DNA of 54,701 nucleotides from Herpetosiphonaceae bacterium (GTDB lineage Bacteria > Chloroflexota > Chloroflexia > Chloroflexales > Kallotenuaceae). The notes below the pieces were generated by a model. The model did not search any database, was not told the DNA's origin, and worked only from the letters and a program-made list of their open reading frames with translations. This document shows, piece after piece, positions 29,737 through 31,006 of this stretch. The position numbers and the translations under genes are program-made. The stretch spans positions 1-54,701 of the forward strand of contig DASUTC010000332.1 in NCBI GenBank assembly GCA_036374795.1, in the 5' to 3' direction. Within the stretch, counting starts at the first letter, position 1. Every line of letters starts with the position of its first letter.

Positions 29737-29915
29737 AGCATCACCTTAATCTGTGAAGAAATACGCAATCTCCGCTTAAGTATAGCATGGCTTGTGGCGG
29801 ACCACCGAGGGGCTGCGATTTCAGATCTTGGTGCTCTTCTTGCTACCTCTGCGCAGCGCTACGACGGACGTGGCCGGGTCCATTCCCGATACAGTCTCAT
29901 CGAGGAGGCGAGATC

Positions 29916-30197
29916 ATGGATCGCAACCAGAACACGGGCAGCGGCGAGTCGGTCAGCGGCACTGGCCTCGACAGCGACATGAGCGGCATGACCGACACCG
30001 GCAGCCGCGATCAGAGCACGATGAGCGGCTACGACACCGGCACCGTCCGGGGCATGGATAGTGCTACCAGCGGTGGCACGGCGATGGGCAACACTGGCTC
30101 TACAGGCGCGGGCATGAGTACGTCGAGAGGTGGAGGGACGAACACGGATTTGAATGTGAGCGGAGACGACGAGGATAACACGGCACGAAAAGGCTAG
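29916..30197 (+). CDS. Low-complexity Gly/Ser/Thr/Met protein
   Basis: A 93-residue product beginning MDRNQNTGSGESVSG, dominated by Gly, Ser, Thr, Asp and Met with repeated DSxMSGM/GMDSAT-like units. It has no membrane segment and is probably disordered. GAGGAGG lies about 8 nt before the ATG, a strong SD that supports the gene being expressed. An upstream in-frame ATG at 29787 is not supported. I recognise no family. Similar short disordered proteins occur among stress-response proteins, but nothing here shows that. Confidence 0.65.
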   Translation: MDRNQNTGSGESVSGTGLDSDMSGMTDTGSRDQSTMSGYDTGTVRGMDSATSGGTAMGNTGSTGAGMSTSRGGGTNTDLNVSGDDEDNTARKG

Positions 30198-30230: not shown

Positions 30231-30256
30231 GGGGGCGTACACGCAGGTACGCCCCC
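30231..30256. terminator. Bidirectional hairpin between convergent genes
   Basis: GGGGGCGTAC pairs with GTACGCCCCC (10 bp, 6-nt loop). It lies between the convergent low-complexity gene and the SelW-like gene. Confidence 0.75.
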
Positions 30257-30271
30257 GATCTTTGCCGAGGC

Positions 30272-30517
30272 TCAGGCTGTGACCGGCGCGCGGTTTTTGA
30301 CCGCATCGAGCACTTCTTCGGGCTTGGCGTGCCGTCCCAGCGCTGCTTTCGAGAAGAGCAGCTGGCCGTCGCACGTCACCTCAAACCGCCCGCCACCCGA
30401 TGGGATCAGGCTCAGATCGGTGATTTGGTCTTCGTAGGCTGCTAAGAGCTTGTCCGCCAAACTGACGGCGCGTGGAGTGTAGTTTCATTCCCGGCAGTAT
30501 TCGATCGAAATCCGCAT
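30272..30517 (-). CDS. SelW/Rdx-family protein, probable selenoprotein (in-frame TGA)
   Basis: Read through one in-frame TGA, this is an 81-residue Rdx (SelW/SelT/SelH-like) thioredoxin-fold protein. The ATG at 30517 has AGGAGG 5-6 nt upstream. The sequence runs MRISIEYCRE, then TGA at codon 11 (30485-30487), then NYTPRAVSLADKLLAAYE, LIPSGGGRFEVTCDGQLLFS and ALGRHAKPEEVLDAVKN. In the family this is a CxxC (or CxxU) redox motif, and the TGA falls exactly on its second position: C8-R-E-U11. The part after the TGA is full length and undecayed. Conventional calling would start at a TTG (30460) and lose the active site. Two hairpins are possible within 45 nt after the TGA. A Cys-to-stop mutation is the alternative. 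Confidence 0.75.
30447..30470 (-). promoter_or_regulatory. Candidate bacterial SECIS hairpin
   Basis: Downstream of the TGA the mRNA can form AGTTT/AAGCT around the loop GGCGGAC (loop starts with GG, 27 nt after the TGA), or CGCC/GGCG around GTCAGTTT (loop starts with G, 19 nt after). Both fit the spacing and loop-G rule for bacterial SECIS elements, but the stems are short. Confidence 0.4.
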
Positions 30518-30556
30518 AGGTCCTCCTCGATCAGACGTTTGATCAACACGGATCAG

Positions 30557-30585: not shown

Positions 30586-30647
30586 CAGCGTACGTTCGAC
30601 CTGCTGCCAATACGCCACACAGCGATCGAACGTTTCATGGAGCACGT

Positions 30648-30676
30648 TTGCGGTGCATGAGAGCAGCGCCTATAAT
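30648..30676 (+). promoter_or_regulatory. Promoter giving a leaderless transcript
   Basis: The -35 is TTGCGG (30648-30653, 3 of 6), with a 17-bp spacer and a perfect -10 TATAAT (30671-30676). The predicted start falls at 30683, which is the A of the ATG of the next gene. Confidence 0.6.
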
Positions 30677-30682
30677 GCGCGT

Positions 30683-31006
30683 ATGCATGATGAAGGTCGC
30701 TTTTCGATTGCCGTGCGGCTGCTGCTGACCGCGAACGAGCGGGAGCGCTTGCTGGCGCTGTGCCAGCAGGAGCAGGCCGACGTGAGCGATGTGGTGACAA
30801 AGATTATCGCCAGCTACCTTGATCGCCGGGATGACCTGACCGTCGCCGCCGTGGCAGAGCCGCCCGCGTCGCCGGACGAGCACAGCGCGCTGCAACGGCA
30901 TATCCGCCAGCTCCGTATGCAGGCCAGCCACATGGGCACGGAGACACCGCCCTGGCTGCGCCACTATATCGCCGAGCTAGAGCAAGAGCTGCGCGGCAAA
31001 CGCTAG
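30683..31006 (+). CDS. Small ribbon-helix-helix-like protein
   Basis: The 107-residue product starts MHDEGRFSIAVRLLLTANER. A short beta-like segment is followed by helices ERERLLALCQQEQADVSDVV and TKIIASYLDRRD, the outline of a ribbon-helix-helix DNA-binding protein. The C-terminal half (SALQRHIRQLRMQ, LRHYIAELEQELRGKR) is helical and may dimerise. There is no SD; the ATG coincides with the predicted transcription start, so it is probably leaderless. A longer ATG ORF from 30539 is not supported. DNA-binding is inferred only from the pattern. Confidence 0.65.
   Translation: MHDEGRFSIAVRLLLTANERERLLALCQQEQADVSDVVTKIIASYLDRRDDLTVAAVAEPPASPDEHSALQRHIRQLRMQASHMGTETPPWLRHYIAELEQELRGKR

Follow-up and report, generated by a model that had tools for sequence, protein, structure and literature searches.

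A probable SelW-like selenoprotein gene of Chloroflexota, with a conserved in-frame TGA followed by a minimal SECIS-type hairpin

The window (the whole stretch of 54,701 nucleotides that was analysed) contains on its minus strand a small redox-protein gene whose reading frame is crossed by a TGA close to its start. Does this TGA end the gene, or does it encode selenocysteine (Sec)? As set out below, the apparent stop almost certainly encodes selenocysteine. The features concerned are the following.

30272..30517, minus strand: selW-like gene of the Rdx family; product of 81 residues, Sec as residue 11 (C8-R-E-U11)
30485..30487, minus strand: in-frame TGA, putative selenocysteine codon (U11); TGA also at the same codon in related CxxU loci
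30522..30527, minus strand: Shine-Dalgarno AGGAGG with a 4-nt spacing to the ATG, seen directly

The frame runs from the ATG at 30517 to a final TGA at 30274-30272. The peptide from this ATG reads MRISIEYCRE-TGA-NYTPRAVSLADK... (the same stretch is given as NYTPRAVSLADKLL), with the motif C-R-E-U, in which the TGA replaces the second Cys of CxxC. The first-pass annotation, made from the letters of the window, had placed the TGA at this position of a SelW/Rdx frame and described a strong Shine-Dalgarno sequence before the ATG, and both statements proved exact (AGGAGG at 30527-30522). With the TGA read through, the Pfam Rdx profile PF10262 was covered over positions 1-74 of 74 (E = 1.7e-21). Scoring Cys for Sec, the protein reached 92.3 bits against the NCBIfam model NF041051, ‘SelT/SelW/SelH family (seleno)protein’ (cut-off 88), and 61.7 bits against TIGR02174 (cut-off 34.2). 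A search of the window's own genome gave one match only to the SelW-like protein.

If the TGA were a true stop, the locus would be a pseudogene, or would encode a 62-residue fragment from the TTG at 30460. That is indeed where the standard-code ORF list begins the frame, 57 nt downstream of the ATG, so the CxxU motif is lost, as had been foreseen for an ordinary annotation. However, the shortened product would lose both redox residues. The gene is also otherwise undecayed, as first described: the TGA at 30487-30485 is the single internal TGA, no further internal stop is present and the whole Rdx profile is matched. Identical TGA codons in independent genomes and phyla, and the synonymous constraint and invariant loop G found downstream of the TGA (both below), likewise speak against a true stop, which we regard as very improbable.

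Conservation of the codon was followed in 59 relatives and the window's own genome, 60 genomes in all. Rdx matches were found in 23 of these, and 11 of the 23, the window's own genome included, had exactly one internal TGA, always at the second motif position. In a twelfth CxxU genome (G015) the contig ends immediately ahead of the TGA and cuts the gene. In the remaining 11 matching genomes the gene had the CxxC form, a distinct and more remote type with 31-36% identity. In a wider set of 400 genomes of the phylum, 185 had an Rdx match, and an in-frame TGA was present in all of the best 64 of the 185. The CxxU position was confirmed in all 38 matches checked (32 of the best 64 and six lower-ranked TGA-bearing matches). 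All 13 loci from other bacteria were also CxxU; their titles named Actinobacteria, Acidimicrobiia, Gemmatimonadetes, Verrucomicrobia, Planctomycetes, Chloroflexi, Deltaproteobacteria/Desulfuromonas, Dormibacterota and Peptostreptococcaceae. Alignment to homologues thus gave TGA or Cys at this codon, and the TGA recurred in relatives at family, order and phylum level and also outside the phylum. The loci read comprised 62 CxxU and 15 CxxC cases, with some genes fetched more than once, and the distinct sequences compared numbered 48 and 13, respectively. Extra in-frame stops in some relatives (one TAG or two TGA) raised the possibility of a UxxU motif or double recoding, which was rejected when six such loci were fetched (L100-L105) and the extra stop was found to be the natural stop at the match end.

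As judged from these comparisons, a chance TGA is excluded, because 62 loci (48 distinct downstream sequences) share a TGA at this codon. If a TGC or TGT had been misread or misassembled as TGA, a single-base change would restore CxxC. The same TGA was found at this codon in loci of many different, independently assembled genomes, which makes such an error exceedingly unlikely, its probability being close to negligible, and the hairpin described next, present in CxxU loci and absent from CxxC homologues, also argues against it.

The first-pass annotation had proposed that the region after the TGA folds into SECIS stems, with their shortness as a weak point. A bacterial SECIS-type hairpin was found there.

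30454..30468, minus strand: bacterial SECIS hairpin, from comparative pairing; the centroid of the single-sequence fold agrees
30463..30468, minus strand: 5′ arm CCGUCA (30468-30463)
30460..30462, minus strand: loop GUU (30462-30460)
30454..30459, minus strand: 3′ arm UGGCGG (30459-30454)

Numbered from the first base after the TGA, positions 17-22 pair with 26-31 around a 3-nt loop, forming a 6-bp stem. The folding energy of this one sequence was not unusually stable (z = 0.30); because this value was uninformative, comparative tests were used instead. The consensus fold of a 21-sequence alignment recovered exactly this 6-bp helix. Paired cells made up 96% in the true register, against 20-47% in slid registers. 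Synonymous recoding of the same peptides with pooled codon usage gave an expectation of 202 +/- 6 pairs, while 259 of 288 were seen; complete stems numbered 29, against 3.8 under synonymous recoding. The first loop base, G23, was present in 48 of 48 distinct CxxU sequences and in 2 of 13 CxxC sequences, and at codons +7 and +8 GTC and AGT were used far beyond the need of Val and Ser.

Pair 18-30 joins two third codon positions, those of an alanine codon and of an alanine or threonine codon. It has undergone a silent double change, from GCC..GCG or GCC..ACG (C-G) to GCT..GCA (U-A). The U-A version was found in the group-f2 relatives from the order, in Deltaproteobacteria/Desulfuromusa loci, in one Peptostreptococcaceae locus and in a further Chloroflexota sequence, L084. 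The covariation gave a 2x2 table of 30/4/0/6 (Fisher p = 5e-5, with kinship of the sequences ignored) and is the strongest single point for the hairpin. In 19 of the 48 distinct CxxU sequences the stem lacked at least one of its six pairs, and a few CxxU loci, for example L029, may use another hairpin. The stem is therefore short, as had been noted, but its shortness did not stand as a weakness, since one conserved and covarying hairpin recurs across phyla.

The window lies in contig C332 of a 7.75-Mb assembly of 373 contigs (100% complete, 4.9% contaminated). All four components of the Sec pathway were present in this assembly: a tRNA-Sec (selC) with anticodon UCA at 67.7 bits (cut-off 47), a SelB gene on the same contig as the tRNA-Sec, SelA at 554.6 bits and SelD at 372.9 bits. 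The SelD gene has an in-frame TGA of its own.

L018 2586-1405 (G000:C18:27476-28402), minus strand: SelD gene with active-site TGA; single in-frame TGA, ...SCAGUASKMGPG...

This SelD is predicted to be a second selenoprotein of the genome, of a known type, and since it carries its own active-site TGA, a second gene of the genome would use the same recoding. Because the assembly is 4.9% contaminated, an independent check in another genome of the same family matters. In that genome (G005; four contigs, 99% complete, 1% contaminated) the CxxU gene, tRNA-Sec, SelA and SelB were all present.

Some bacteria recode TGA, and in principle suppression or an altered genetic code could place Trp or Cys at this codon. 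We consider this highly improbable, as the genome has a complete Sec pathway, the gene has one internal TGA only and uses TGA as its normal stop, and the internal TGA lies at the redox position and is followed by a SelB-type hairpin.

The CxxU form was also compared with the Sec pathway across the 60-genome set. SelA was over the cut-off in 11 of the 12 CxxU genomes. It was absent from 14 of the 60 genomes, and among these CxxU was found in G027 only, a genome that is 76% complete and has tRNA-Sec. Seven selA-less genomes, which serve as a negative control, had CxxC only (G010, G013, G016, G022, G025, G031 and G044), and G010 also had no SelB over the cut-off. A tRNA-Sec over the Rfam cut-off was absent in G012 and G052, both of which have CxxU selW, SelA and SelB (selA and selB at L066 and L112 in G012 and at L065 and L111 in G052); an assembly gap or a divergent tRNA is possible in these two. 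Together with G027, in which no selA was found, these two genomes count against the Sec reading. A DNA query with tRNA-Sec gave no match anywhere, genomes known to have tRNA-Sec included, and is thus uninformative. In G052, ARAGORN identified a weak match to tRNA-Sec next to selA as tRNA-Ser. G012 carries two Rdx genes, one CxxU and one of the distant CxxC type (G012:C27, G012:C146; L035, L056). Since they occur together, CxxU and CxxC genes seem to form separate paralogous groups and not to be simple replacements.

The initial suggestion of a probable selenoprotein is supported by tRNA-Sec, SelA, SelB and SelD and by the conserved codon and hairpin; these genes and this conservation were observed directly, as were the frame and the motif. 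We have little doubt that this is a SelW-like (Rdx) selenoprotein gene of Chloroflexota, with hairpin-directed Sec insertion and a C-x-x-U thioredoxin-fold oxidoreductase as the predicted product. Ribosomes would start at ATG 30517, and SelB with Sec-tRNA(Sec) would bind the hairpin 17-31 nt downstream of UGA 30487-30485 through the G that opens its loop, selenocysteine presumably being inserted at this UGA. The product would be small, with a thioredoxin fold and a C-x-x-U redox centre, and its most likely activity is that of a thiol/selenol oxidoreductase that may work through glutathione or another low-molecular thiol.

The existence of SelW-like proteins with CxxU, which the first-pass annotation had given as family knowledge, is borne out by NF041051 and by two earlier surveys, which described bacterial members in 2005-2006 (PMC1088965, PMC1794560). 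With 48 genes and a CXXU motif, the SelW-like family outnumbered every other selenoprotein family in the Sargasso Sea data. In this family the conserved CXXU points to a redox role, and an interaction of SelW with glutathione was reported, the function of the family being unclear (PMC1088965). The 2006 count of bacterial genomes listed ten SelW-like genes, and three selenoproteins of three families in Chloroflexi. Few Cys homologues of SelW-like proteins were found in Sec-containing organisms, and Sec may be the original form (PMC1794560). A literature search of partial coverage found no paper on SelW-like selenoproteins in Chloroflexales, which is weak evidence.

The gene described here is an additional example of this known bacterial family. 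It shares the small Rdx domain, the CxxU motif with U second, the loop-G hairpin just after the UGA and a genomic Sec pathway; it differs in its host, a member of Chloroflexota, but not in mechanism. CxxC Rdx proteins with solved structures (for example 2fa8, 3dex and 2obk) are homologous over nearly the full length (best E = 3.5e-12). Unlike the present protein they have Cys for Sec, and the CxxC homologues that we read lacked the SECIS hairpin at that place. Eukaryotic selenoprotein W has CxxU at the same place, but its SECIS lies in the 3′ UTR and not just after the UGA.

The minimal SECIS was also found in loci of Actinobacteriota, Desulfuromonas-like bacteria, Planctomycetes, Verrucomicrobia and Peptostreptococcaceae. 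We suggest tentatively, and with more doubt than conviction, that in Chloroflexota the Sec form is common and probably older and has been kept by a near-fixed minimal SECIS of 6 bp whose loop opens with G, this single recoding cassette either predating the split of these phyla or having moved between them with the gene. A gene otherwise truncated by standard annotation is now corrected, and the many Chloroflexota CxxU genes with their very constant hairpin provide clean comparative data on the mRNA needs of SelB.

Three further features lie near the gene.

30231..30256, minus strand: 10-bp perfect inverted repeat, a possible transcript end, 15 nt after the stop, seen directly; without a T-run
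30620..31006, plus strand: divergent ORF, function unassigned; kept beside selW in the same-family genome, 56% identity
31128..31946, plus strand: tlyA-like gene (name given on sequence grounds); also a neighbour in the same-family genome, at 75% identity

The inverted repeat (GGGGGCGTAC/GTACGCCCCC) lies between two convergent genes and was not picked up by a terminator scan. The convergent ORF at 29787-30197 (plus strand, 136 residues) has a second half that is rich in Gly, Ser, Thr and Met and repeat-like, and had no match within the syntenic region of G005. Among the gene neighbours examined there was no conserved partner pointing to a substrate, and synteny was seen within the family only. 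The order selW - divergent ORF - tlyA - kinase was common to the window and G005.
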